DNA of 48,566 nucleotides from a virus, in the IMG/VR virus record IMGVR_UViG_3300035698_027457, positions 1 through 48,566 of that record. One strand, given 5' to 3'. Positions 23,443 through 46,759 of the stretch are shown here, in pieces; the first letter of the stretch is position 1, and each line of letters starts with the position of its first letter. Under the pieces are notes generated by a model, which did no database searches, was not told where the DNA came from, and was given only the letters and a program-made list of their open reading frames with translations. The position numbers and the translations under genes are program-made.

Positions 23443-24897
23443 TTAAGCCGCCATCCACCCTCGAAGTGCCCCACTAGTCTCTGCATATTGTTTCCTAATC
23501 CTTCCACGATCCTTTCGATACCTTTCAGCGACTGGATTAAACGATTGCAGAACAGGTACAGTGTTCTCGAAGTAACGAACATCATCGCAAGCATGATCAG
23601 GAAAGTTTCCGTCAGGTTTCTCGGTCTTCTCATCCCAAGGCAACGCCGCCATTTCATTTATCGTATACTCAAGATGCGACATAAAGAAGCATTGAGGCGA
23701 GCCAAAGATGCCAGTGTAGGGGTTGAAGAGATCTGAGCGAACAAGTAACCTTTCATTCACTCTTTGCACGCCGGTATCAATTGTGTTGATCGCAGGCGTC
23801 CAGGCAATTCCGTTATCAAAATAATCTATCGCAACGGATGAGACCTGGTTGTTCTTTGATTGTGATCGATGGAAGATCGACGGATCAGCAATATCGGCGG
23901 CATAGATCTCTTTGTTTCCATCCGTATCAAATGAGAGCTCGATGATTCTTTTCGCATTCTCTGAAGGCACCCTACCATAAGCAACGTATTCACGGTAGTA
24001 AACCGAATAGCCCGTATCAGGATCACGTGCAGCCCAGATGCAAACCGTCGGATCAATCGTTTGCCCGTGGTCAAGAATTCGATACTTCGGCCAATACGCC
24101 GGAATCATATGAGGCTTAACAACGTGAGTTTTATAATTAAAATCGTAGACCAATCCAGCATATGCTTCGTAAGAGGCAAAGCGGAATCGCTCTTTCATTC
24201 GATCCGGAAGCTCTTCAAGAGTATCGAAATAATCTTCAGGAAGGTGCTCTTTATTGACGTCAGTAATTGCATCTACGCAGGTGCGAAAACGCTTCGTGGT
24301 TGGGTATTGACAGAACGTTTGCCAGACACCCTCAACGCCATCAACGTCCCAGATCAATCGTTTATCAGGATTGCGATGGAAGTGATTCCAGATCCAATTA
24401 TGCCCGGCAGGGTTATGTGTGATGAAAGATTCTCGGACCGTTCCGGCGTGTCGCGCCCGACCTCTCAGGGTAAAATACGCCTCATCATCAATCTCTTCAG
24501 CCTGATCGATCCCAAAGAAAGAGAGGTTCAATGATGCAAGGTCGTTATAAGATTGGCGACTGTCAAGGTGGCGAAAGAGAACCTGAGTGTTTTGCTTTCC
24601 TTCAGGCGATGCTAGATAACAGATATGGCGAGAGTCGTTGCGGCGTGCTATTACCGCAGGGGGCACGATGGCGTAGAACTCTGTCATCACCGTGTCTTCA
24701 AGCTCTTTATACGTTTTCCTGCAGAGAGCGACCCGCCCTCCTGGATTCAAATCATGATGCCTTAGCGCACGAAAGACCAGCGCCGTCGTCTTGCCATTCC
24801 CCCACCCACCCCCGAAGGCTGCCTCGATTTGCTCGGCCCCTACGGCTAGGGATTGCGCGACGTTGAATTGGATCTCTTCATCATACGCAGTCGCCAT
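23443..24897 (-). CDS. terL: Terminase large subunit, 484 aa
   Basis: The packaging motor and nuclease. The N-terminal ATPase has a Walker A loop GGGWGNGKTTA (residues 29-39), an adenine-binding region with LCRKTYKELEDTV, and Walker B NLSFFGIDQAEE near residue 130, with the coupling motif FITHNPAG about residue 160. The C-terminal nuclease domain holds acidic residues in RILDHGQTIDPTV, IYAADIADPSIF and NFPDHACDDVRYF. Length is normal for the family. It follows TerS and a small basic protein, and its start lies behind a dispersed palindrome copy with no clear ribosome site. Confidence 0.92.
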   Translation of the reverse strand: MATAYDEEIQFNVAQSLAVGAEQIEAAFGGGWGNGKTTALVFRALRHHDLNPGGRVALCRKTYKELEDTVMTEFYAIVPPAVIARRNDSRHICYLASPEGKQNTQVLFRHLDSRQSYNDLASLNLSFFGIDQAEEIDDEAYFTLRGRARHAGTVRESFITHNPAGHNWIWNHFHRNPDKRLIWDVDGVEGVWQTFCQYPTTKRFRTCVDAITDVNKEHLPEDYFDTLEELPDRMKERFRFASYEAYAGLVYDFNYKTHVVKPHMIPAYWPKYRILDHGQTIDPTVCIWAARDPDTGYSVYYREYVAYGRVPSENAKRIIELSFDTDGNKEIYAADIADPSIFHRSQSKNNQVSSVAIDYFDNGIAWTPAINTIDTGVQRVNERLLVRSDLFNPYTGIFGSPQCFFMSHLEYTINEMAALPWDEKTEKPDGNFPDHACDDVRYFENTVPVLQSFNPVAERYRKDRGRIRKQYAETSGALRGWMAA

Positions 24898-25071: not shown

Positions 25072-25611
25072 TTACGCGACGTTCTCATCTTTCCGGATCG
25101 GGACAACCCTTCCCTGAGCCTCTTCTTGCGAACCTTCAATAACCCGAGGCTCTTCCGTCGGGGGGTTCATAAACACCCTGATTGTTTGCTTAACGTTTTC
25201 CTTCCCTCCCGGGGGATTTGCCAGCAACCCTAATAAATCATTGGCGGATCGGCGGCGCGTGTCTGGGCTCGACTCAAGATCATCTCTGATCGAAACAAGC
25301 GTATCTAAGCACGCCGACGCTTCCCCTTTTAACCTCTCCGTTAGATCGCCTTGCTGATCAATAGCTTTCTCTCTAACCTCTTCAAGCAGAAGCTGAAAGA
25401 CCTCCCCGTTGATATAATTCGTGATCGTCTTCTCACCAACCCCGATAATCTCAGCCGTTCTTTTATTCGTAAGCCCTTTCGCCTTCAACATCGCGATCTC
25501 AAGTCCACGACCCCTGAACGCAGTTTTGATCTCATCAAGGCCAGTCCTTCTCGCCCCTGACTCAATCCCTTTAACCGTCGCGATGAGAGCGTCCTGCTCT
25601 GGTGAGTTCAT
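25072..25611 (-). CDS. terS: Terminase small subunit-like protein, 179 aa
   Basis: A helix-turn-helix lies at about residues 35-70: EIAMLKAKGLTNKRTAEIIG followed by VGEKTITNYINGEVF, as in DNA-recognising TerS proteins. The centre is helical (LTERLKGEASACLDTLVSIR), suiting ring assembly, and the tail is polar and probably contacts TerL. Position just upstream of TerL supports the call. A sigma70-like promoter (25644-25672) is present about 35-60 bp upstream. Confidence 0.8.
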   Translation of the reverse strand: MNSPEQDALIATVKGIESGARRTGLDEIKTAFRGRGLEIAMLKAKGLTNKRTAEIIGVGEKTITNYINGEVFQLLLEEVREKAIDQQGDLTERLKGEASACLDTLVSIRDDLESSPDTRRRSANDLLGLLANPPGGKENVKQTIRVFMNPPTEEPRVIEGSQEEAQGRVVPIRKDENVA

Positions 25612-25672: not shown

Positions 25673-25786
25673 GCTTTAAATTGTTCGCCCTAGGGACTAT
25701 ACCAGTCTTTCGTTCGACCCTAAAAGTCTAGAGAGCAACCAAGAGGGTTTTCTTCTCTCCGCGCGGATAGGGGGGGGGGTCTACCC

Positions 25787-25872
25787 CTTTGTCGTAACCT
25801 TTATCGTAGTCTTTGCTGTAACCTTTGTCGTTACCTTATTTGAGACTTTGTCGTATGACTAAACTTTGTCGT
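25787..25872. repeat. Iteron-like array of 12-bp repeats
   Basis: The nonamer CTTTGTCGT or a close variant starts at 25787, 25799, 25811, 25823, 25846 and 25864. The first four are exactly 12 bp apart (unit CTTTGTCGTAAC); the last two follow at 23 and 18 bp. A run of ten G (25770-25779) lies just before the array. The stretch 25612-25973 has no credible gene. Such arrays are typical of replication-initiator or repressor binding sites. Confidence 0.75.
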
Positions 25873-26686: not shown

Positions 26687-27015
26687 GGTGTCTCCCTCTC
26701 TCTTTTGGGCTCTCGCCCGGGTATTGAATGGTTTTAACCTTTTCCTGATTACACAAGCATTCTACACTAAATGGTTGGGTAGAGTCAAGTAAATAATGCG
26801 GATCAAAAAGGCAAGGGGTATTTTTTGGGGTCCGGGGCTGGGGATTTTGGGGCTTGTAAAAAGACCAGGCGGGTGCTAAGGCATGTGGCGGGGCCAGGGT
26901 AGGTAAGGGGGCACGGCGCACCGGCGCGTGCGTTAGGGCGGGTTTGTTTGTTTGCTATACAATGCAAGGGATTATACCTTACCGAGACTGTAGCATATAA
27001 GTGTTTAATCAAGTG

Positions 27016-27021
27016 TTTATA
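27016..27021 (-). promoter_or_regulatory. Outer leftward extended -10 box
   Basis: Minus-strand TTGGTATAAA (hexamer TATAAA at 27016-27021). It is the exact mirror position of TATAAT at 27723-27728 about the centre 27372 and points to the leftward genes. A further minus-strand box GGTATAATCC lies at about 26969-26978. Confidence 0.5.
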
Positions 27022-27153
27022 CCAAGTTTTGGGTTTTTTGCTATAAAGCACTGATTTTATTATGTTTTTCGTTAACAATAACAATTCTTGGTCTAATCAC
27101 TGGATTAAACACTTAAAACGCTTTAAACGTTGGGTTTGCGGGTTCCCGCATTG

Positions 27154-27159
27154 ATTATA
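27154..27159 (-). promoter_or_regulatory. Inner leftward -10 box
   Basis: Minus-strand TATAAT in the context GGTTAGTATAATCAATG. It mirrors the rightward TATAGT at 27584-27589 to within one base and is followed on each side by CCCGCAAAC. Confidence 0.45.
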
Positions 27160-27287
27160 CTAACCGTAAGTCACTGATATTATTAAAAACCCTAAGTGTA
27201 AACTGTTGTACCCTAGGTTCTATGCTTTTTTTTAATCAGGGGTGCTTTGTCATGAGAATAAGGGTCAAGAGAAGAGCTAGAGAAGGG

Positions 27288-27354
27288 GTGTTGAAAGGGA
27301 AGTGTTGAAAGGGAAGTGTTGAAAGGGAAGTGTTGGAAGGGAAGTGTTGAATAG
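27288..27354 (+). repeat. Tandem 14-bp repeat, almost five copies
   Basis: The unit GTGTTGAAAGGGAA starts at 27288, 27302, 27316 and 27330 (one mismatch in the fourth), and a partial fifth starts at 27344. It is purine-rich on the plus strand, occurs only left of the palindrome centre and abuts the AT-rich core, as origin iterons often do. Confidence 0.85.
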
Positions 27355-27425
27355 TTCTCTTTCTTTTATATATTATACATTATTATATATATATAATTAA
27401 TACAATCTAAAGATTAATATCTCTC
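27355..27425. other. AT-rich palindrome core, candidate replication origin
   Basis: Almost pure A/T with alternating TATATATA blocks (around 27366-27410), flanked on the left by the 14-bp tandem repeats and lying at the centre of the long palindrome between divergent transcription units. This is the layout of a DNA-unwinding element beside initiator sites. Origin function is inference. Confidence 0.5.
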
Positions 27426-27583
27426 TCTCAATTCTTACGACTCCTCACTTAATCTTAAAGGCTTGGAATAGGCAAATCCTTATTTCGGCCTTCAAAAAAA
27501 GAGGTTGAAGATTGCAAGGGGTAGAACCTAGCGTACAACAGTTTACAGTTCGTGATTGTAATAAAATCAAGGGGTTATGGTGG

Positions 27584-27589
27584 TATAGT
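27584..27589 (+). promoter_or_regulatory. Inner rightward extended -10 box
   Basis: TGGTATAGTC with the hexamer TATAGT at 27584-27589, mirrored on the left arm at 27154-27159. Confidence 0.5.
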
Positions 27590-27722
27590 CAAGGGGTGAA
27601 GCCCGCAAACGTAGAGTCTAAGGGGTTTTAAGTGTTTAATCCAGTGATTAGACCAAGAATTAATCCTAATAACGAAAAAACCAATGAAAACAAAAGGTTA
27701 AAGCATTTTAGGCAAAATATGG

Positions 27723-27728
27723 TATAAT
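27723..27728 (+). promoter_or_regulatory. Outer rightward extended -10 box
   Basis: TATGGTATAATCAAGG with TATAAT at 27723-27728; the TGG before it makes an extended -10. Its left-arm mirror is at 27016-27021. Confidence 0.55.
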
Positions 27729-27782
27729 CAAGGGGTTAAACACTTATCTCCTACAAAACAGGTTTAGTATTAAAAACAAAAC

Positions 27783-27813
27783 TTGACAAGGTGCCAGCCC
27801 CCTATGGTATAAT
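27783..27813 (+). promoter_or_regulatory. Main early rightward promoter
   Basis: TTGACA (27783-27788) and TATAAT (27808-27813) are separated by 19 bases, with an extended TGG before the -10. Both hexamers are consensus. It lies 75 bp before the first rightward gene and just outside the palindrome. Confidence 0.75.
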
Positions 27814-35141: not shown

Positions 35142-36431
35142 GTGAAAATCCCCGTTGATTCAATTCTTGTCGGTGAACGCTATCGCCAAACTTTTCTAGC
35201 AATGGACGAATTAGAGCGTTCAATTAAAGACTACGGCCTTCTCCATCCTATCGTTGTGAGTAGAGATCCCGAAAACTTAAGTCGCTTTATTCTCGTTGCA
35301 GGGGAGCGTCGCCTCCGTGCTGTTAAAGCTCTTGAATGGGAACAGGTTGATGCCACTCTTGTCGAAGATCTTGACGAACTCGGTCGTCGGGAGCGAGAAC
35401 TCGAAGAAAACGTAATCCGAGAAGATCTCACCTGGCAGGAGCATGTTCGTCTAATCAAAGAGCTTCATGACCTTAAGTCTGAGAAATACGGAAGAGCACG
35501 CCGAGGCCGTGGAGGCTTCGGTGATCGAGCGATCAATCCCCCAGGTGTCCATCGCTTGAAAGATACCGCTGCAATCGTCAACGCTCCTCGTTCAACAGTT
35601 ACCCGCTGGATTGAGATCGGCCAACATCTCGCCGATGGGGATATTCCTGGCCTAGAAAAAGCAACGCACAGGCGGGACGCTCTCAAAATGATTGAGGATA
35701 AGAAACGCCATGACGCCGCAGCCGCCCTTGTTAGGCAAATGAAGAAACTCCCCATTAAGAACGTTATCGTTCATCACGGCGATTGTATCCCTGCCTTGAA
35801 GGAGTTCCCAGACGAGCTTTTCGCAATGGCGGTTCTTGACGGACCCTACGGTGTCTCAAGCGATCTCGCACACTTTGATGATTCTTACCAAGCATGGAAA
35901 GATTTTTACACAGCCCTTCTCCCAATCCTCTATCGCACAGGGCAAGAGCAATTTCACGCCTATATCTTCGGCGCGGGGGATTACGAACTTCTTCCAGAAC
36001 TTCGCGCAATGGCTCGTGATGCTGGTTTCGACGTTCCCCGCTATCCCATCCACTGGTTAAAAAACAATCATGATCGAGTGGGGAACTTTCGCCTTGAATA
36101 TGCACCAATAACTGACTGCATTCTTTTTATCTCCAAAGGCGGAAAGATGCTCAATCAAGAATTCTCGCGGAATATTATCGACGTTCCGAGCGTGCCTGTT
36201 CCGCGCCGCTTAATTAAAAATGAGAAACCAATGGGGCTCTTAGAAGCCCTAATCGAGAACTCTTCACTCGAAGGCGATTTGATTCTCGACCCTGCTTGTG
36301 GAGTGGGTTCGGCTCTGATCACTGCTGCAAATATCGGGCGACGTTCGATTGGCTTCGAGAAAGACGATGATACGTTTGGGAAGTTGATTACGAATTTAAC
36401 CCTTTGGGCGGAAAGATTAGAGGTGGACTGA
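35142..36431 (+). CDS. ParB-like nuclease domain/DNA methyltransferase fusion, 429 aa
   Basis: The N-terminal 180 residues are ParB-like: YGLLHPIVVSRDPENLSRFI, VAGERRLRAVKALEW and NVIREDLTWQEHVRLI, then a helix-turn-helix (TAAIVNAPRSTVTRWIEIGQ). The C-terminal 220 residues are an N4/N6-type DNA methyltransferase: FAMAVLDGPYG (residues 229-237, catalytic motif IV) and LILDPACGVGSALITAANIG (motif I, Asp383). Motif IV reads DGPY where DPPY is usual, and motif I reads ACGVG where FxGxG is usual, so activity or specificity may differ. GTG start with AAGGAGG. It may protect phage DNA from restriction. Confidence 0.82.
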   Translation: MKIPVDSILVGERYRQTFLAMDELERSIKDYGLLHPIVVSRDPENLSRFILVAGERRLRAVKALEWEQVDATLVEDLDELGRRERELEENVIREDLTWQEHVRLIKELHDLKSEKYGRARRGRGGFGDRAINPPGVHRLKDTAAIVNAPRSTVTRWIEIGQHLADGDIPGLEKATHRRDALKMIEDKKRHDAAAALVRQMKKLPIKNVIVHHGDCIPALKEFPDELFAMAVLDGPYGVSSDLAHFDDSYQAWKDFYTALLPILYRTGQEQFHAYIFGAGDYELLPELRAMARDAGFDVPRYPIHWLKNNHDRVGNFRLEYAPITDCILFISKGGKMLNQEFSRNIIDVPSVPVPRRLIKNEKPMGLLEALIENSSLEGDLILDPACGVGSALITAANIGRRSIGFEKDDDTFGKLITNLTLWAERLEVD

Positions 36432-36432
36432 A

Positions 36433-36927
36433 ATGGAAGTCCTTCACCCAAACTTAAAACGTCAAATCATCAATATGCTCAAGGGCTTTGGCGAATTACC
36501 TTCTAAGCAGAGGCAGCTCACCGAAACGAGAGAATTGCTTGAGCCTCTTAAGGCCTTGATCGATGAAATCATCCCAGAGAAACGCTCCGTCACGTCCTTA
36601 CCTAACGAGGTCGCCAAGAATATTGATTTCCTCGATACTTACGAGTGGAGTGATGACGAGATCCTCTTTGACCTCTTCCATCTCTATCCTAAAGAGCTTG
36701 CGTTTCCAAACGGCTTTTACGATGCGCGTTTCTTTCACCTCATCGCTTACAACTCAACGACGATGAAACGCCGAAACTTCGGACGTAATCATGATAAGAT
36801 CAATCTTTGGAAGATTCCTTGCAGTGAGCTCAAGATTTTCGCTGACGGATCAACACTCTTAAAACTAGAAACGCCCTTGGAAATTCTACCCGGACAACTT
36901 GTTAGCTTCTCGGAGGTGAAAAAGTGA
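36433..36927 (+). CDS. Hypothetical protein, 164 aa
   Basis: Family not recognised. A helical N-terminal half (LKRQIINMLKGFGELPSKQR...LKALIDEIIPEKRSV) is followed by an aromatic, mixed domain (IDFLDTYEWSDDEILFDLFH, then YPKELAFPNGFYDARFFHLI) and a strand-rich end (LKLETPLEILPGQLVSFSEV). It starts one base after the methyltransferase stop and its TGA overlaps the GTG of the next gene, so it is part of the same translation chain. It might assist the methyltransferase or the sugar enzymes. Confidence 0.7.
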   Translation: MEVLHPNLKRQIINMLKGFGELPSKQRQLTETRELLEPLKALIDEIIPEKRSVTSLPNEVAKNIDFLDTYEWSDDEILFDLFHLYPKELAFPNGFYDARFFHLIAYNSTTMKRRNFGRNHDKINLWKIPCSELKIFADGSTLLKLETPLEILPGQLVSFSEVKK

Positions 36928-39116
36928 AAAAAGCAACCGTATTTGGAGGAGCAGGCTTTATCGGCTCCGCTCTTATTAAAGCCTTGCACACCACCGGCGA
37001 GTGGGAAATCACTGTCGTCGACGATCTCAGCAATGGGTCGTTCGATGAGCTTCCTGATGACGAGCGCTGTCAGCACCATAGAATGGACATCTCAAGCAAA
37101 GAACCACAACCTGCTTACTTCATCGAAGAAGGCGCCGTGGTCTTTCTTCTTGCGGCCATTCCACTCCTTACCTGTGAAACTGACCCTGCACGAGCAATCA
37201 AAGTTAACATCAAAGGTTCGTGGAATGTCTTTAACGCCGCCGTGATAAAGAAGGCATCACGGATCATTTTCTCATCGTCGGCATCAGTCTACGGGAATAT
37301 TCACGCCCAGAGTAGGTCATACACCGATACTAAGGACGGACCCATAAACAATCGTAACGTCTACGGCGCGACAAAAATTGCGGGCGAGCAAATCCTCCGT
37401 GCCGTTCATGATCAATCAGGGATTCCTTTCGCTTCTTTCCGTTACGCCAACGTCTACGGGCCCCGAATGGAGACATCAGCAGGCACAGTCTATACAGATG
37501 TGATCACGCAAATGATTAATCGAGTCAAGGAAGGGAAGGCACCGAGTATTTTTGGCATCGGCGATGAGACGTTTGATTTCATCCATGTTGATGATGTCGT
37601 GAGGGTGAACATCCTTGCTGCAACTCGCAGCGCTTCTGAAAGTGAGCAAAAAATCTTCATCGCCCTTCCTAACACCGAACTCGACATCGGAACAGGAATC
37701 GGGACATCAATACGTGAGCTAGCAGAGCTTGTCAAAGAACTCATCGATCCGACTTTAGGAATCACTTATCTTCCGGCGCCTGAAGAGCGAAAGGGTCTTG
37801 TCACAATGAGAGTCCTAAACCCTCGCCCTGCCGTCAAGGCACTCAGATTTAACAGCATGGTTTCGCTTGAAGAAGGGCTGAAAAGGCTAATCGATCCAAG
37901 GGAGAATCCATTCGGTAACATCGTAGCAACCAAACCTTGGATCACCGAAACGAACGAACCGATCCCAATCGCCAAACCCTGGATCACTGACGCCGATATA
38001 CTCGCCGTTACTAACGTCCTTCGATCCGGCTGGCTTGTTCATGGAGATAAGGCCAGGGAGTTTGAGAAGCAACTCGCCGATTACACCGGCGCAAAGCACG
38101 CCATCGCCACAACCTCGTGCACCGCAGGGCTCCATATGCTGCTCCTCGCTGCTGGTGTTGGTCCTGGAGACGAAGTCATCGTTCCTGCCTTAACCTACAT
38201 TGCGACTGCTCACGTTGTTGAATACACCGGTGCTACGCCTGTGTTTGTCGATATTGATCCTTCAACTTTCTGCCTTGACTTCCAAAAAACCATAATAGGC
38301 ATTAGCGCCAAAACAAAAGCGATTATTCCGGTGCATCTCTTTGGGTATCCGGTTGGTGTCGAAGCACTAAAAGATATGATCACAATCGCTGTTGACCGAT
38401 ACATTCCAATCATCGAAGACTGTGCATGTGCCCTTGGTGCTAAGACACAGCTGGGATTAGCTCTTTCGCTCCACAGCGCGCACGTTGGTCTCTCAGGCAT
38501 TGGTGGCTCAATCTCCTTTCATCCCCGCAAGGGCATTACGACAGGTGAGGGCGGCATGGTCATTACAAACAATGACGACGTCGCCGAGCATATCCGTTGC
38601 CTTCGCGATCATGGCTCCTTCGTTGAACGTACGGCCTTTACAACTAGCCTCCCCCCATACACCAGGCTTGGCTTCAAGTATCGAATGACTGACATTCAAG
38701 CCGCTCTTGGTGTCGAGCAGATGAAGCGTTGGCCTGAGATGCTTAAGAAAAGGAAAGAGCAAACGGCTTACTACTATCGGTATTGTCAAATAGAGGGCGT
38801 AAAACCCCCTCTAGGCAATCCAGGCCACTCTTGCCAAGCCTATGTTACTACTCTTAGTCATGATATCTCCGCCGCCAACGTCAGAGCAACAATGATCGCT
38901 GAGGGTGTTAGCGTTCGGGAAGGGACACACGCCGTTATAGAAACGGCACGATATCGTCAGGCTCTCCTCAAAGCAGGAATTAGGTCCTATGAGGAATATC
39001 CTAACGCCATCTACGCGGCAGACCAAACAATCGCTCTTCCTCTCTTTTACGAAATGACCACAGCACAGCAAGATCGTGTAATCGAGACGCTTGCAAAGGC
39101 GATAAAAAAGGAGTAA
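36924..39116 (+). CDS. SDR sugar epimerase/dehydratase fused to DegT-family aminotransferase, 730 aa
   Basis: Two sugar-nucleotide enzymes in one chain. Residues 1-330 are an extended SDR: VFGGAGFIGSALI (Gly8-x-x-Gly11-x-x-Gly14 NAD loop), SSSASVYG and the catalytic NVYGATKIAG (Tyr147, Lys151). Residues about 350-730 are a DegT/DnrJ/EryC1/StrS PLP enzyme: SGWLVHGDKAREFEKQLADY, TSCTAGLHMLLLAAGVGPGD, IEDCACALGA and SFHPRKGITTGEGG, with Lys536 the probable PLP lysine. It would oxidise, epimerise or dehydrate a nucleotide sugar and then aminate it. GTG start with GGAGGTG. This fusion is unusual and is translationally coupled on both sides. Confidence 0.88.
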   Translation: MKKATVFGGAGFIGSALIKALHTTGEWEITVVDDLSNGSFDELPDDERCQHHRMDISSKEPQPAYFIEEGAVVFLLAAIPLLTCETDPARAIKVNIKGSWNVFNAAVIKKASRIIFSSSASVYGNIHAQSRSYTDTKDGPINNRNVYGATKIAGEQILRAVHDQSGIPFASFRYANVYGPRMETSAGTVYTDVITQMINRVKEGKAPSIFGIGDETFDFIHVDDVVRVNILAATRSASESEQKIFIALPNTELDIGTGIGTSIRELAELVKELIDPTLGITYLPAPEERKGLVTMRVLNPRPAVKALRFNSMVSLEEGLKRLIDPRENPFGNIVATKPWITETNEPIPIAKPWITDADILAVTNVLRSGWLVHGDKAREFEKQLADYTGAKHAIATTSCTAGLHMLLLAAGVGPGDEVIVPALTYIATAHVVEYTGATPVFVDIDPSTFCLDFQKTIIGISAKTKAIIPVHLFGYPVGVEALKDMITIAVDRYIPIIEDCACALGAKTQLGLALSLHSAHVGLSGIGGSISFHPRKGITTGEGGMVITNNDDVAEHIRCLRDHGSFVERTAFTTSLPPYTRLGFKYRMTDIQAALGVEQMKRWPEMLKKRKEQTAYYYRYCQIEGVKPPLGNPGHSCQAYVTTLSHDISAANVRATMIAEGVSVREGTHAVIETARYRQALLKAGIRSYEEYPNAIYAADQTIALPLFYEMTTAQQDRVIETLAKAIKKE

Positions 39117-39907
39117 TGATGCCGCACGAAATCGTTGAAAGAATGTCCAAGCTCTGTCATTACGATGAACCCTGTGCCTGCTATATCAGTGGGGGGCTTG
39201 ACTCTACGATTGTTCTACATCACCTCGTTGAGAATGGTATGGCCGTAAAGGCGTTTACTGCTTCCTTCGACGAGCGGACTCTGATTGAAGATATGAAGAT
39301 AATTAATCGTCTTTCAAGTCATTACAAGGTCATTACCGAGATCATTTGGATCAAAGATATCATCCCTGAATTCCCTGAAATTCAACGGCATCTCCCTCAA
39401 CCTCGCTACAACGTCTGGCCTTGGTGGCTTGCTCGTGCTGTTCACGCCGATGGATTTAAAACCGCCTTCGTTGGTGAGGGCGCGGATGAGATTTTCGGAG
39501 GTTACAATGACCGTTCTTACCTCGAAGCCTGGGCAAGCCAAATCGAATACATTAGAAGAACTTGGGATGTCCTCCATGCCGTTCACGACGTCAAGATCGT
39601 TGCCCCTTTTAGTGAGCTTAATTCGTTCAAGATGGCCAACTACTTCCACCCGCCAAATAAGCAATTCCTCCGTGATGCCTACCGAGGAATTCTCCCGGAT
39701 TTCGTCATCGACCGACCCGCAGAACCGCCTCATTACGCCAATTACAGATCTCTTTGGGAAAGAGAGTTGAAGAATTACTTTCCCCCTTGCGAGGATATCT
39801 CAGTTGTTGAGATTAAGCGCCTCCTCCAACTCTTTGTTACAAGGGTTTGGTTAAACGTTCATGAGATTATGGAGCTTGAGAGGAGTAACAGTGCCTTTCA
39901 TTCATAA
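39116..39907 (+). CDS. Asparagine synthetase C-domain-like amidotransferase/ligase, 263 aa
   Basis: A single ATP-pyrophosphatase domain of asparagine synthetase type. CACYISGGLDSTIVLHHLVE gives the PP-loop (Ser25-Gly-Gly-Leu-Asp-Ser-Thr), and FVGEGADEIFGGYNDR is the second conserved block. The usual glutamine-hydrolysing N-terminal domain is absent, so ammonia or another nitrogen donor must be used, or a separate glutaminase. Within the sugar cassette it could amidate a uronic acid or another acid group. Its start overlaps the previous stop by one base (TAATG). Confidence 0.82.
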   Translation: MMPHEIVERMSKLCHYDEPCACYISGGLDSTIVLHHLVENGMAVKAFTASFDERTLIEDMKIINRLSSHYKVITEIIWIKDIIPEFPEIQRHLPQPRYNVWPWWLARAVHADGFKTAFVGEGADEIFGGYNDRSYLEAWASQIEYIRRTWDVLHAVHDVKIVAPFSELNSFKMANYFHPPNKQFLRDAYRGILPDFVIDRPAEPPHYANYRSLWERELKNYFPPCEDISVVEIKRLLQLFVTRVWLNVHEIMELERSNSAFHS

Positions 39908-40346: not shown

Positions 40347-41134
40347 GAATTGCCCTAATCGGATGTGGACGGTGGGGAAAGAATCTTGCAAGGGTTCTTA
40401 GCGAACTAAACGTGCTCAAGACTACCGTAACGCGCCATACTGCAATGGATGGTAAGGGCTGGATTCAACGTTACGCTCATACTGTTGACGGCGTCGCAAT
40501 CGCTACCCCCTCCGAAACTCACTACGAAATTGCCCTAGCCGCTCTTGAACATGACCTTCACGTCTTCGTTGAGAAGCCAATGTGCTTCTCTACCACGCAG
40601 GCGCAGCGCCTAGTCGAGACCGCGAAGTTTGAAAATCTAACCTTAATGGTTGGGCACATCATGTTCTATCACGCAGGATTTCAACGGCTTTTGGAAGCTC
40701 CTATTCAATATTCCAATCTTCACATTAATGCTCTACGAATCAAAGATCAAGCACCACATTATCAAGAGAGTGCTTTGTGGCGTCTCGCTCCCCATGATGT
40801 AGCGATGGTATTAAGGCTTGTTGGAAGAGCGCCTGATAAAATTATATATTCAGGGACTTCAAGATATGGAACTTTGATCCTTCTTTGGCGTCCTGAAGAT
40901 ATTGAAGCAACGATCAAAGTTGGTCATGCTCAGGTAAAGACAGAAAGACAATTCTCGGTTGGTCCTCATCGTCTTGTTACTTTCACCGTTAGTGACGATC
41001 CTGAGCCTCTCAAAACTGAAATGCAACACTTCATTGATTGTGTTAGAACAAGCACCTCGTCAATAACCAATGGTGAAACGGGCCTTGAAGTCATCCGTGT
41101 TCTTGCTAAGGCAGAAAGGTCTTTAAAGCAATGA
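40343..41134 (+). CDS. Gfo/Idh/MocA sugar dehydrogenase (WlbA/WbpB-like), 263 aa
   Basis: An N-terminal Rossmann fold (MRIALIGCGRWGKNLARVLS, Gly8-x-Gly10) is followed by VDGVAIATPSETHYEIALAA and HVFVEKPMCFSTTQAQRLVE, where the Glu-Lys-Pro motif binds NAD and sugar. The C-terminal domain is shorter than usual (family members often have 330 or more residues) and has WRLAPHDVAMVLRLVG with the expected catalytic-region His. In the Wlb and Wbp pathways this enzyme oxidises C3 of UDP-GlcNAcA before amination. Both its start and the next start are ATGA overlaps, so it is coupled to the DNA polymerase. Confidence 0.87.
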   Translation: MRIALIGCGRWGKNLARVLSELNVLKTTVTRHTAMDGKGWIQRYAHTVDGVAIATPSETHYEIALAALEHDLHVFVEKPMCFSTTQAQRLVETAKFENLTLMVGHIMFYHAGFQRLLEAPIQYSNLHINALRIKDQAPHYQESALWRLAPHDVAMVLRLVGRAPDKIIYSGTSRYGTLILLWRPEDIEATIKVGHAQVKTERQFSVGPHRLVTFTVSDDPEPLKTEMQHFIDCVRTSTSSITNGETGLEVIRVLAKAERSLKQ

Positions 41135-43512
41135 GAGAATTCGGTCGAATCCCTGAACTTGAAGATGGCAAAGCCTTCAACTACGTTCCAGGCGTTGGTC
41201 CTCAAAACCCTTCCATAATGATTATTGGTGAGGCCCCTGGAAAGGAAGAGAATGAACGCAAACGACCTTTTGTCGGTTTTGCAGGACGACTACTCAACAG
41301 CCTACTTCAACGAGCTGGACTCGACACTATACCATATCGAACCAACGTTGTTAAGTATCGCCCGCCGAACAACAACTTCGATCATTTTCGCGGCACAGCC
41401 ATCCTGCGTTGGAGTCAGATGGAGTTACGAGATGAGATTTCAACGGTCAATCCCCGAATCCTTGTCCCTGTTGGAAATGAATCTCTTGAAGCAATTTGCG
41501 GCCTTCGCGGCATTACGAAATATCGAGGCTCAGTTTTGGAGACTAACGGGCGCACCGTTATCCCAACTATCCATCCTGCAGCAATTTCTCGAAATCCACG
41601 ATATCGGTCACTTATCATTAGCGACTTCAGAACTATCGCGGCATGTCTTAAAGGAGAATCTTTTGCGTCTGATAACGACGTTATCTTAACAAAGCCTCAT
41701 TATAGAGATGTGATAGAGTGGCTTCGCTCAGCAGGCGATACAATTACATTTGACATTGAGCTTATCGGTTACAACATTGCCTGCTTAGGATTGGCAGACT
41801 CCGCTCATAATGCAATCGTTATTCCGTTTTACGATATTGAAGGGAACATTCTTCGAAACTACTTTACCGTCGAGGAAGAGGTCAATGTATGGTCGCTACT
41901 CCAGGATTTTTTCAAAACCCCACGCCGCTTCGTCAATCAAAATGTCGCCTTCGACTTGTGGTTCCTTGGAAAACTTGGAATCCGCTGCAAGCATCTATGG
42001 TTCGACACTATGCTCGCACATCATACGTATGATTCTACACAACCGCACGATCTAGCTTTTCTCACATCCGTCTACACAAAGAGACCTTATTACAAGGATG
42101 AAGGGCGCTTCTGGAAGCTAAAGGGTGACACTAATATTGAAAGGTTCTGGAATTACAATGCTCTTGACGTGCTCGCCACCTGGGAAGTTGCAGAAAAGCT
42201 CGATAAGGATTTAGAGAAAACAAAGCTCGATAAATTCTTTTACGACTACGTCATTAAGCTCGTCAATCCTGTTTTGAAGATGCAAAGACGCGGCGTTTTA
42301 ATCAATAAGACGTTACGGGAAAGGCTCCGTAGAAAAACACAGAAAGAGCTTGATCTGCTCACTTTGAGTTTAAACACCGTCGCTAATCGTGAGATTAATT
42401 GGAACTCGTCAAAACAAGTTCGTGAAATTTTTTATGACGTTCTTAAGTTCCCAAAGCAATACGGTAAGACTGGGAGTCTCTCAACAGATAAAAAATCCGT
42501 AACGAAAATCTTAGTCTATCATTATGAAAGAGAGCTTCCAATTCCACAACTCCTTCTCGATTTCAAAGAACGAAGTGAGAAGCAAGCATTTATGTCAAAA
42601 GCTCTCAAGGTAGATACTGATTCTGATGGGCGTGCCCGGACTTCTTACTTAATCCACGGGGCAGGAACGGGGCGCTTTGCCTCTCGTAAATCTTTCGAAG
42701 GTTCCGGCACGAACCTTCAGAATCGCACCGTTGATGAACGTGAGATGTTCATCGCTGACCCAGGCATGGTAATGTTCCAAGCCGATCTTACCCGAGCAGA
42801 AAATTGGCCTGTTGCAGCACTTGCGAACGACTATGCTTTGCTTGATCGCTTGCGCGCCGGCGTCGACCTCCACACCTTTAACGCCGCTTATATTTATGGA
42901 GTTACTGAGGAGGAGATTGCTGAGGAACACGAACGCTCAAAACGTGGGGAGATTCCTGAGAATAAGACTCGGCGCTTCCTTGCAAAGCGCGCCGGGCACG
43001 GCTTTAACTACGGTATGGGAGCAAAAACACTCCGCGATCTTATCCTTCAGGACGATTACACCTACCCAATGACCGTCCGTGAAGCAGGATTTCTGCTAAA
43101 CAAATTCAAAGCAATTTATCGCAAAGTGGTTATTTGGCAAAATTCAATGGAACGGCACATTCAAGCAAACCGTGAGATTCGCTCACCAACAGGCCGACGT
43201 CTGGTCTTCGCGGGGCGAATAGGCTCTCACGAAATCCGAACAGGACTTTCATTCATTCCCCAAGATGTCGTTTGTTGGCTAATTGGAAAGGCGTTAATCG
43301 AGCTTGATGAAAAAGATCAAATCCAACCATTGCCTTTGTTTCCCTTGATGCAGGCGCACGACGCGATTATAGGGCAATCACCAGAAGAAAAGGAAGCCGA
43401 AGCCAACTTTTTACTTAAAGATTCAATGGAACGAGAGATTCGGATCAACAAGCATGAGTTTACTATCCCTGTCGAGATAGGATGGGGGAAGAATTGGAAG
43501 GAGGCGAAATGA
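41131..43512 (+). CDS. Uracil-DNA glycosylase/DNA polymerase I (family A) fusion, 793 aa
   Basis: The replicative polymerase. Residues 1-175 are a family-4-type uracil-DNA glycosylase: IMIIGEAPGKEENERKRPFV and TIHPAAISRNP (His148). The 3'-5' exonuclease follows, with TFDIELIGYN (Asp208, Glu210), FVNQNVAFDLWFLG and YNALDVLATWEV. Polymerase motif A is MFQADLTRAENWP (Asp552), motif B RRFLAKRAGHGFNYGMGA, and motif C LMQAHDAIIG (His743, Asp744), where Ala replaces the usual Glu of HDE. UDG-polymerase fusions are known from SPO1-type phages with modified thymine. Its ATG overlaps the previous stop by four bases. Confidence 0.92.
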   Translation: MREFGRIPELEDGKAFNYVPGVGPQNPSIMIIGEAPGKEENERKRPFVGFAGRLLNSLLQRAGLDTIPYRTNVVKYRPPNNNFDHFRGTAILRWSQMELRDEISTVNPRILVPVGNESLEAICGLRGITKYRGSVLETNGRTVIPTIHPAAISRNPRYRSLIISDFRTIAACLKGESFASDNDVILTKPHYRDVIEWLRSAGDTITFDIELIGYNIACLGLADSAHNAIVIPFYDIEGNILRNYFTVEEEVNVWSLLQDFFKTPRRFVNQNVAFDLWFLGKLGIRCKHLWFDTMLAHHTYDSTQPHDLAFLTSVYTKRPYYKDEGRFWKLKGDTNIERFWNYNALDVLATWEVAEKLDKDLEKTKLDKFFYDYVIKLVNPVLKMQRRGVLINKTLRERLRRKTQKELDLLTLSLNTVANREINWNSSKQVREIFYDVLKFPKQYGKTGSLSTDKKSVTKILVYHYERELPIPQLLLDFKERSEKQAFMSKALKVDTDSDGRARTSYLIHGAGTGRFASRKSFEGSGTNLQNRTVDEREMFIADPGMVMFQADLTRAENWPVAALANDYALLDRLRAGVDLHTFNAAYIYGVTEEEIAEEHERSKRGEIPENKTRRFLAKRAGHGFNYGMGAKTLRDLILQDDYTYPMTVREAGFLLNKFKAIYRKVVIWQNSMERHIQANREIRSPTGRRLVFAGRIGSHEIRTGLSFIPQDVVCWLIGKALIELDEKDQIQPLPLFPLMQAHDAIIGQSPEEKEAEANFLLKDSMEREIRINKHEFTIPVEIGWGKNWKEAK

Positions 43513-44150: not shown

Positions 44151-45380
44151 TTGTCAATAAAACGGCCTTACGAGAATTGGCTCACTGGATACGTCACATA
44201 TGCGTCGCGAATGACTGAAGCCCCTGACTTTTACCATGTCTGGGTTGGACTCTCGACAATCGCCGCCGTTCTTGGCCGAAAGGTGAAACTCGCATGGGGG
44301 GACGATTGGCTTTACCCAAATCTTTACGTCGTCCTTGTAGCAGGCTCTGCCACTTGCAAGAAGTCGTCAGCTATTATGGTTTCACAGAGGATGCTTCAAC
44401 GCGTTCTCGACGTCACTGATTGGCTCGAGCCTCCCTATACGCTTTTCACTGCACACTTGACAAAAGAAGTCTTGATCCAAAGGCTCTCCGAAATCGAGGC
44501 ATTACGGGGTGATGGAGAACTGATTGTCCACGCCGACGAACTAGGCGCTTGTCTTGACCGTGACGCATACAAAGCGGGATTTTTTGAACCTCTTATTAAG
44601 TTCTACGACTGCACGCCGTGGGGATCAGACACAAAGACTCAGGGAACGTATCCTGTAGATCGTCCTTGTGTAAATTTCCTTGGGGGCACGATTCCGACGT
44701 GGTTCCAGGATGTCCTTCCGAAAGGAGCTTTAGAGGGAGGGCTCGTCCCACGGATGCTTTTTATCTACGCCGAGAATCCCGACAGGCGCATTGCCATTCC
44801 AACAATGACACCAAAACTCCAGAAGATCCGCGATGCACTTGATATAGGACTTGCCCATGTAGCAGAACTTGAAGGAGAGATAACGTTCTCTGATGAAGCA
44901 CGAGCGATGTATGTTGAAGATTACGAGAACGCCCATTTCACCGGTCCTGAATACATGGCCGCGTATTGGGGACGGAAATACACTCACGCATTAAAACTTG
45001 CAATGCTTTTCTCAGTTATCTATAGTGACGAGTTAATCCTTCGACGTGAGCACTACGTGCTTGCGATGAGGTTTCTTGACGAACTTGAAGGCTCGATGTC
45101 TCGCCTCTTCTCAATGATTACGAAAGCTTCTGCGGCTGAGAGAGGTCAATCGATTATTAAGATTGCTCGGTGGATTTACGACAACGGACACAAGGAATTT
45201 TCATACCGTCAAGTAATGCAACGATTTGTGCGGGAAACAACAGTTCTTCAATTACGCGCCGACCTTGAGGCTTTCTCCGAAGGAGGGTATCTTAAAAAAC
45301 AAAGTAGAGGTAGAGCACTACATTACGAAGTGGATATGACAGCAATCGCGAAAATGCTAGGAGAGGAGCTTTTAGAATGA
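44151..45380 (+). CDS. DUF3987-like primase/helicase ATPase, 409 aa
   Basis: A TTG start at 44151 (MSIKRPYENWLTGYVTYASR) is chosen because the product then contains the whole WLTGYVTY...DFYHVWVGLSTIAAVLGRKV lead of DUF3987 ATPases; AAAGGTGAC precedes it. The P-loop reads LVAGSATCKKSSAIMVSQ (Gly65, Lys70-Lys71-Ser72), with Lys where Gly is usual, as in other members. Walker B is ELIVHADELGACL near residue 125. A C-terminal winged-helix-like part (YRQVMQRFVRETTVLQLRAD) could bind DNA. It is the only helicase candidate seen and lies beside the polymerase. Confidence 0.72.
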   Translation: MSIKRPYENWLTGYVTYASRMTEAPDFYHVWVGLSTIAAVLGRKVKLAWGDDWLYPNLYVVLVAGSATCKKSSAIMVSQRMLQRVLDVTDWLEPPYTLFTAHLTKEVLIQRLSEIEALRGDGELIVHADELGACLDRDAYKAGFFEPLIKFYDCTPWGSDTKTQGTYPVDRPCVNFLGGTIPTWFQDVLPKGALEGGLVPRMLFIYAENPDRRIAIPTMTPKLQKIRDALDIGLAHVAELEGEITFSDEARAMYVEDYENAHFTGPEYMAAYWGRKYTHALKLAMLFSVIYSDELILRREHYVLAMRFLDELEGSMSRLFSMITKASAAERGQSIIKIARWIYDNGHKEFSYRQVMQRFVRETTVLQLRADLEAFSEGGYLKKQSRGRALHYEVDMTAIAKMLGEELLE

Positions 45381-46759
45381 CACTAAGCGTATGTATGATT
45401 GTTAGAAATGCAGAGGAGTCTCTGTCAAAAGCCCTTAAAAGCGTTAAGGGACTCGCTAGTGAAATCATCGTCGTCGATACGGGCTCAACTGATAGAACGA
45501 TTGAAGTCGCCAAAGCTAACGGCGCAATAGTTCAGGAGCATCCCTGGAAGGACAGCTTTGCGGAGGCGCGGAATCACTCTCTTGTTGCTGCCGAAAGCGA
45601 TTGGATTTTAATTCTTGATTCCGACGAAGAGCTTCGTAAGAAAGACCATCAAAAGATCAAAACTGCAATGCGGGCAGTCAATATCGATGCTTATCTCTGC
45701 CCTAATGTTAGTTACGATACAAGCGGCGTGCTAAAAGGCCGTCACTATAACATCCGTCTCTTCCGTAATACAGGAAGAGAGTTCTACGTCTACCGTGTTC
45801 ATAACCAACTAATGGGGGTTGATCCTGCGAAGGCAGCGCCTCTTGAAGTTCCGTTCTACCATAAGGGCTATGCGCTGGCGAAAGAAGAAATGGTGAAGAA
45901 GTGGAAGCGAACTGAGCATCTCCTAGAACTTCAAATCAAAGACGAGCCAAACATTGCCTTCCATCACTACAATCTCTGTGTCGTTCAGAACAATCTTGGA
46001 AGCTATCTTGAGGGTCTTAAGAACGCCGACTTCGCCCTCACACTCGCAAGGGCGAAAGGCCAGATAGAATTATCAATCGTTCTTATGTCGCTCTACATGA
46101 AAGGAAACATGCTCGCAGCGCTCAGAAATACCCCCGAGGCAGAGGCTGCTTGTCGAGAGGCAATTGCAATTCAGAGTGAATTCCCTGATACACTTTTCCT
46201 TCTCGGCGACATTCTTCACCAAACCCACGGGGACAAGCTCGAATGTATCGTCTCAATGGAGCGTTACATCAAGATAAATAAAAAGATCAAAGATAAACCT
46301 CTCCCAAATGCGTTAATTCTTAATACTCTTGGTCACGAGGCTATTGCTTATCATCATATCGGATGGGCATATCTTGGTGCGACGGCGTTTGAGCGAGCGA
46401 TCAAAGCCTTTAAGAAGTGCTTAAAATCAAACCCAGTCCCGCTCTATAAGATTAGCACGTTGCAGGGCCTTGCCGTCTGTTTTTTAAACACAGGTAACTG
46501 GGCTCAAGCGGCGAGGACCGAACAGCAAGTGCTTGAGATTGATCCTGAGGATTTCACTGCAATGAGCAATCTCGCTGTTTGCCTTATTGAGCAAGGGAAT
46601 AAGGAAGAGGCGAAGCCGTTTCTTGAATCTGCCCTTGCGGCATCGCCGACGTATCCTGACGCTGTGATAAACTTCGCACGGCATTTTACTTCTTTACAAG
46701 CGGAGTCGCTGCCCCAGTCCGAAGGAAAATTGCCAGAAGAGAACCCAGACCAGTCATGA
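45377..46759 (+). CDS. GT2 glycosyltransferase with TPR repeats (SunS-like), 460 aa
   Basis: Residues 1-200 are a GT2 domain: LSVCMIVRNAEESLSKALKS, IIVVDTGSTDRTIEVAK (nucleotide binding) and WILILDSDEELRKKD (the DxD motif). Residues about 215-440 are TPR repeats (IALGYLGATAFERAIKAFKK-like; actual YLGATAFERAIKAFKKCLKS and LAVCLIEQGNKEEAKPFLES). SunS and related peptide or protein glycosyltransferases share this design, in which the TPR part binds the acceptor. It is the last gene of the rightward unit, coupled by ATGA to the helicase-like gene. Its 3' end overlaps the opposing holin-like gene by 74 bp. It may transfer the sugar made by the upstream cassette to a protein. Confidence 0.85.
   Translation: MTLSVCMIVRNAEESLSKALKSVKGLASEIIVVDTGSTDRTIEVAKANGAIVQEHPWKDSFAEARNHSLVAAESDWILILDSDEELRKKDHQKIKTAMRAVNIDAYLCPNVSYDTSGVLKGRHYNIRLFRNTGREFYVYRVHNQLMGVDPAKAAPLEVPFYHKGYALAKEEMVKKWKRTEHLLELQIKDEPNIAFHHYNLCVVQNNLGSYLEGLKNADFALTLARAKGQIELSIVLMSLYMKGNMLAALRNTPEAEAACREAIAIQSEFPDTLFLLGDILHQTHGDKLECIVSMERYIKINKKIKDKPLPNALILNTLGHEAIAYHHIGWAYLGATAFERAIKAFKKCLKSNPVPLYKISTLQGLAVCFLNTGNWAQAARTEQQVLEIDPEDFTAMSNLAVCLIEQGNKEEAKPFLESALAASPTYPDAVINFARHFTSLQAESLPQSEGKLPEENPDQS

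Follow-up and report, generated by a model that had tools for sequence, protein, structure and literature searches.

A large imperfect palindrome with an A/T core, recurring upstream of polA in dozens of divergent phages, is a probable origin of DNA replication

Introduction

The herpes simplex origins oriS and oriL carry inverted origin-binding sites on either side of an A/T core. In SaPIs, the Rep helicases bind iterons via their C-terminal domain, and two hexamers have been proposed (PMC7581432). The origin of the Vibrio cholerae PLE is a noncoding region with inverted repeats converging on a poly-A tract and is necessary for replication (PMC7145576). For the Xanthomonas phages Xp10 and Xop411, an A/T-rich noncoding tandem-repeat region in a 44-kb phage was suggested as a possible origin (PMC2248197). 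DUF3987 proteins were earlier predicted as helicases of mobile-element replication, and the winged-helix domains associated with them were suggested to recognise origins (PMC5862659).

Here we describe a phage element for which no prior description was found in the literature searched. The window, i. e. the whole stretch of DNA that was analysed, is a single virus record (48,566 bp) with an identical 127-bp repeat at its ends and is therefore a closed assembly. It contains an imperfect palindrome of 767 bp, centred at 27372.0, with a core of nearly pure A/T. As in SaPI/PICI origins, an initiator helicase would bind short repeats through its C-terminal domain, here a predicted domain of a DUF3987 protein. 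Unlike in SaPI/PICI origins, the repeats form long inverted arms, and DUF3987 is another Pfam family than the DUF927 or D5-type Rep proteins. Whereas the SaPI origin lies directly downstream of rep, the phage site lies kilobases from the helicase gene. The herpes origins belong to another virus realm, use the initiator UL9 (SF2) and have much shorter arms. The PLE differs in its units of tens of bp, its RepA_N initiator and the lack of an MCM-like helicase. In the accessible part of the description of Xp10 and Xop411, a large palindrome was not found (PMC2248197).

Results

Geometry and significance of the palindrome

Palindromes were scored as matches minus mismatches, with 78 Markov-1 simulated genomes as the null. 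The arms about 27372 are by far the best inverted repeat of the genome, scoring 100 against null maxima of 14-19; the next-best palindrome elsewhere in the same genome scores 15. A BLAST search of the palindrome region against its own genome recovered the same arm pair with E = 4.8e-40. The large imperfect palindrome claimed by a sequence-only reading of this DNA is thus confirmed, and the alignment of the arms proposed there gave 71% complementarity without gaps. Since the arms are only 71% alike, an assembly chimera is excluded. The main features are as follows.

26989 to 27222, no strand: left arm, 234 bp, 71% complementary to 27522-27755 without gaps
27522 to 27755, no strand: right arm, 234 bp, pairs with 26989-27222
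27083 to 27119, plus strand: perfect 37-bp block of the left arm, mirror 27625-27661
27625 to 27661, minus strand: perfect 37-bp block of the right arm, mirror 27083-27119
26998 to 27024, minus strand: 27-bp element TGGTATAAACACTTGATTAAACACTTA, copy 1 of 4, overlaps an extended -10 box and is a candidate site of protein binding
27089 to 27115, plus strand: 27-bp element TGGTCTAATCACTGGATTAAACACTTA, copy 2 of 4, includes the dyad TAATC-N4-GATTA
27629 to 27655, minus strand: 27-bp element, copy 3 of 4
27720 to 27746, plus strand: 27-bp element TGGTATAATCAAGGGGTTAAACACTTA, copy 4 of 4
27288 to 27351, plus strand: 14-bp unit GTGTTGAAAGGGAA repeated 4.6 times in tandem, lying between the left arm and the core
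27366 to 27410, no strand: A/T core, candidate DNA-unwinding element, maximum A+T 0.95 over 40 bp

Two repeat pairs share the centre 27372.0: 26989-27142 with 27602-27755 (154 nt, 75%) and 27163-27222 with 27522-27581 (60 nt, 80%). The perfect 37-bp pair had been correctly noticed before, as had a 25-bp pair with one mismatch, which consists of exact blocks of 15 and 10 bp (27197-27222 and 27522-27547). The arms had been thought colinear for about 375 bp each. This holds for 234 bp per arm; the central 299 bp between the arms are asymmetric and contain the 14-bp tandem repeat and the A/T core.

Each arm has two facing copies of the 27-bp element (TGGTMTAATCA...TTAAACACTTA), the inner dyad of which resembles TAATC-N4-GATTA. 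Judged by sequence, the four copies and the 4.6 units of the 14-bp tandem are repeated candidate initiator sites in the window. An A/T-rich segment is present beside the repeats, as in iteron-type origins with an unwinding element. Immediately left of the palindrome, positions 26820-26945 are strikingly G-rich with many GGGG runs.

Genome context and promoter-like boxes

In this genome the palindrome divides two halves, as had been noted before. Starting at about 26.7 kb, the structural genes, namely those for the portal, the large terminase and the probable small terminase, are read leftward; the early and replication genes, which encode an exonuclease, a Sak4-like protein, a ParB-methyltransferase, the family A polymerase and the DUF3987 protein, are read rightward from about 27.9 kb. 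The minimum of the GC skew is offset from the palindrome, and the change in skew tracks gene orientation. The genes and promoter-like sites used below are these.

23443 to 24897, minus strand: large terminase (terL)
25072 to 25611, minus strand: HTH protein, probable small terminase (terS), directly upstream of terL
41131 to 43512, plus strand: family A DNA polymerase (polA), phrog_17, E 1e-81, start about 13.8 kb from the palindrome centre
44151 to 45380, plus strand: DUF3987 protein, 409 aa, candidate initiator/helicase, PF13148, E 2e-13
27154 to 27159, minus strand: -10-like box TATAAT without a good -35
27584 to 27589, plus strand: -10-like box TATAGT, preceded by TGG, without a good -35
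27783 to 27813, plus strand: best promoter-like site (TTGACA, 19 nt, TGG-TATAAT), reading into the early genes

Several neighbouring features were observed besides. At 25786-25837, in the interval from the probable terS to the early boundary, CCTTTGTCGTAA is repeated 4.3 times in tandem, possibly as a packaging or regulatory site. At 35142-36431 a ParB-like nuclease domain is fused to a DNA methyltransferase, and the gene order here is kept in three relatives described below (L006, L007, L008). A 730-aa fusion of nucleotide-sugar epimerase-like and aminotransferase-like parts (36924-39116) has QueC-like and glycosyltransferase genes near it (39116-39907, 45377-46759); together they are possibly a DNA or surface modification set.

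The sequence-only reading had taken the palindrome for an inverted block of mirror-image promoters. TATAAT-like boxes do occur at mirrored positions. TATAAA at 27021-27016 (minus strand) faces TATAAT at 27723-27728 (plus strand), both preceded by TGG, and the second pair, TATAAT at 27159-27154 and TATAGT at 27584-27589, is one base off the exact mirror. These boxes may be used as extended -10 promoters. However, -35 elements are absent: each of the four boxes has at best 3/6 matches to a -35 hexamer, and the sole full sigma-70-like site of the region (27783-27813) is unpaired and situated beyond the palindrome.

If the element were an inverted early-promoter/operator block, one regulator would control both divergent operons through the four 27-bp copies over the -10 boxes. 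The overlap of copies carrying TAATC-N4-GATTA dyads with TGG-TATAAT-like boxes agrees with this, as do the switch of gene orientation at the palindrome in the window and the position of the element near early genes in annotated relatives. Yet the flanks are not divergent wherever the element occurs: in L006, L008 and L181 the annotated genes on both sides run in the same direction. Thus shared control of divergent units, which fits this genome in part, is not what conserves the element. It would also leave the A/T homopolymer core and the size in other phages unexplained. Taken with the missing -35 elements, this makes a promoter block unlikely as the nature of the element.

Recurrence of the element in divergent phages

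No DNA-level relatives of the window were found by megablast in the phage collection or by exact 24-mers in viral contigs, and next to nothing came from single-sequence queries with terL, exonuclease, portal and polymerase. Relatives were gathered from IMG/VR and GenBank by protein, the productive query being a polymerase alignment. Microcystis phage Mel-JY34 (L006), a Desulfofustis phage (L007) and MW202489 (L008) share a common gene order with the window at a polymerase identity of about 30%. In 3/3 of them the best palindrome of the genome lies in the early region and has an A/T run at its centre.

The alignment of the four polymerases led to 80 further IMG/VR loci, from which 35 long records were taken. 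Most of these show a single outstanding palindrome with a score of 22-49 over a background of 15-18. Of the 26 records whose region upstream of polA is complete, 21 reach a score of 22 or more (null maximum 19), and in every one of these the palindrome sits 8.1-17.3 kb upstream of polA. G016 and G020, which belong to the 21, apparently have a different structure; they were left out of the core and periodicity analyses because their repeats flank small ORFs. In G020 (L140-L142) a row of small ORFs at about 26.7-27.6 kb of the contig, each between inverted repeats of 26-34 bp that are 89-92% identical, forms a cassette-like array unlike the origin-type palindrome. Two further annotated phages have the palindrome, MW202554 (score 45) and BK063670 (score 37).

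The arm sequences differ from phage to phage and are mostly not alignable. What is constant is the form: inverted arms (about 30-115 bp) that flank a gap of some 50-350 bp, and an A/T core. The window palindrome is the largest example found. In L006, L183, L184, L185 and L186 the element lies in a CDS-free gap. The window and G008 have one arm stretch in common, with a score of 19 where the null reaches at most 15; this pair was chosen from many and is a hint only.

Core and periodicity were analysed in a set of 27 members, i. e. 25 discovery records (the window counted), MW202554 and BK063670. The longest A/T homopolymer of the genome lies between the arms in 15/27 members, where the gap averages 0.37% of the genome, and by A+T content the 40-bp windows of the gap are at a median in the top 0.01% of the genome. 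Across 94 pooled arms, self-matches are in excess at lags of 8, 9 and 10 (z 4.4, 2.3 and 3.6) and also at lag 4; control sequence 3 kb away did not show an excess at those lags. Singly, the periodicity is significant in just 7-8 of the 27 phages. In some phages the arms clearly contain short iterons, commonly spaced by about 10 bp; in others none are obvious. The contigs of G003 (L097-L099) and G011 (L115-L117) begin in, or within tens of bases of, the central homopolymer. These are probably assembly breaks; natural ends are possible.

The relatives also bear on a role in packaging, in which the terminase would bind the inverted arms of a pac or cos site and cut nearby. Repeats are common in such sites, and terS is just 1.7-2.3 kb from the palindrome in the window, L006, L007 and L008. 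However, several early genes separate the two in L006 and L008, about 6 kb lie between them in Vibrio L184, a pac site would not be expected to have a melting core, and the window has no fixed contig end at the palindrome. We regard a packaging site as improbable. Telomere resolution with N15-like hairpin ends was rejected, as the assembly runs through the palindrome and closes elsewhere via the 127-bp end repeat.

The inverted arms could further be kept because they pair in single strands, in a transcribed regulatory structure such as a long RNA hairpin. One strand of the palindrome folds much better than shuffled sequence (DNA parameters, z -12.7), as would any inverted repeat this long. Against such a structure, no curated RNA family was matched at gathering score in Rfam; the sub-threshold matches, mostly to plant microRNA models, are expected for hairpins. 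Moreover, conservation of the arms is blocky, many phages have loops of more than 150 nt and a homopolymer core, and transcription does not cross the element in the same direction in all phages. A conserved RNA is thus very improbable. Spontaneous extrusion of a cruciform from the DNA itself, the other option raised beside an origin, is also unlikely, because the loops are about 50-350 bp and the arms imperfect. Of that earlier suggestion, the origin is the part best supported.

Held-out test and range of the element

The position rule was fixed before the test records were fetched; for the test the score cut was loosened from 22 to 20. The 33 new long records were picked via another gene, DUF3987. 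The score reached at least 20 in 28/33 records, and 27 of these 28 palindromes lie within the predicted band, 8-17.5 kb upstream of polA. Against uniform placement this gives a binomial P of about 5e-18; the phages are related by descent, so this P-value does not stand for 28 independent events. Sequences at the held-out sites are mostly not alignable. In 18/28 matches the gap contains the longest A/T run of the genome; an A/T core is absent in three (G036, G045, G053).

Chance, a mobile-element remnant or an assembly artefact is refuted by this test and has a negligible probability: the position is constant despite a sequence that differs in every phage, and the null maximum is 19. A transposon or MITE was likewise rejected, as the arms differ in every phage while the place stays constant.

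Two other observations were made in individual records. In G056 (L329-L331), two perfectly matching 34-bp arms, separated by 776 bp, lie in inverted orientation 7.5 kb upstream of polA and probably represent a different element. In G055, G059, G065 and G066 (L326-L328, L356-L364) the polymerase is split at one profile position, about 539/540, into pieces 0.1 to 3 kb apart; this looks like an intein or intron site.

The element has limits in its range. Kuura has a DUF3987 relative (E 1.6e-60) but no palindrome, and the palindrome is missing in G005 and G017 too. Gordonia phage Pons and the records L009-L011 have neither a DUF3987 relative nor a palindrome, and the terL relatives L004 and L005 are without a comparable palindrome. 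Vibrio phage VS-ABTNL-3 has a short palindrome (score 20) with repeats of AATTTTTA around T8. In PaP2 and Tiera the expected place has repeats below the threshold (18 and 17, respectively), which are not significant alone. In all three phages these repeats are about 13 kb upstream of polA. The Jamesmcgillvirus group (Pseudomonas phages PaP2, 119X and PaMx41) thus resembles the window in having DUF3987 and PolA, and a small inverted repeat, intergenic in PaP2 (42772-42875), occupies the corresponding position 13.1 kb upstream of polA; unlike in the window, this repeat is below significance (score 18) and without a strong A/T core. Pseudomonas phage Shea, a 98.6% relative of PaP2 (L186), is reported to persist as a non-integrated episome (PMC13348215), for which a working origin would be required; sequencing reads from its host cells are public (SRR37263212, SRR35438347).

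The DUF3987 protein as candidate reader of the arms

The gene for the DUF3987 protein lies about 17 kb from the palindrome (44151-45380 and 26989-27755, respectively). An AlphaFold model of the protein (24 sequences) has a mean pLDDT of 86.6. Its best structure matches in the PDB are MCM helicases (E 1e-8), with a TM-score of 0.4-0.5 by query length, which indicates a shared fold and not close similarity; a PDB sequence search with the DUF3987 alignment gave no matches. By predicted secondary structure the last 75 residues form a winged helix. As a predicted fold, the protein would thus be an AAA+ helicase with a C-terminal DNA-binding domain.

Mean pairwise identity is 0.21 in the winged helix and 0.37 in the ATPase core. 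A winged helix that varies more than the core is expected if this domain reads arms that differ in each phage. Comparing the similarity of the arms between phages with that of the winged helices gave no correlation. The protein matches a PHROG named 'DNA primase' (phrog_14296). Proteins of this MCM-like kind are usually annotated as primase or DUF3987, and in view of the modelled fold the primase label is doubtful.

Discussion

What is observed directly is a significant palindrome with an A/T core that recurs at one genomic place in dozens of highly divergent phages. We consider it probable that this palindrome serves the phage as its replication origin. Of the earlier reading, the origin half is favoured, and the promoter half is not what is conserved. 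In an origin of this kind, the inverted arms would hold initiator-binding sites that face one another across the centre. The A/T core would melt, a helicase would be loaded on each side, and two forks would depart in opposite directions.

The likeliest initiator and helicase would be the phage's own DUF3987 protein as the subunit of an MCM-like AAA+ ring. Its C-terminal winged helix would read the arms, an architecture like that of SaPI Rep. We arrive at an origin with DUF3987-bound arms from the winged-helix prediction, the binding of iterons by SaPI Rep and the inverted repeats and poly-A tract of the PLE. For the binding of the arms by the DUF3987 protein, we see even chances.

A more far-reaching interpretation, which we offer tentatively and think less likely to hold than to fail, is that these palindromes are a class of origins with two-sided loading that is widespread in phages, where the arms recruit two MCM-like rings head to head around an A/T core. 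With the same reservation, and jointly with that class, such two-ring loading may be convergent with the loading of archaeal and eukaryotic MCM double hexamers at inverted sites, while the arms and the domain that reads them diverge fast.

One rule, the best palindrome with an A/T core 8-17 kb upstream of polA, locates a candidate origin in dozens of barely alignable phages. As a candidate initiator is paired with a candidate site, origin recognition by the MCM-like helicases of bacterial viruses becomes directly testable. Symmetry and place are kept in these phages and the sequence is wholly changed; the palindrome is thus a cis element conserved in its form, not in its letters.
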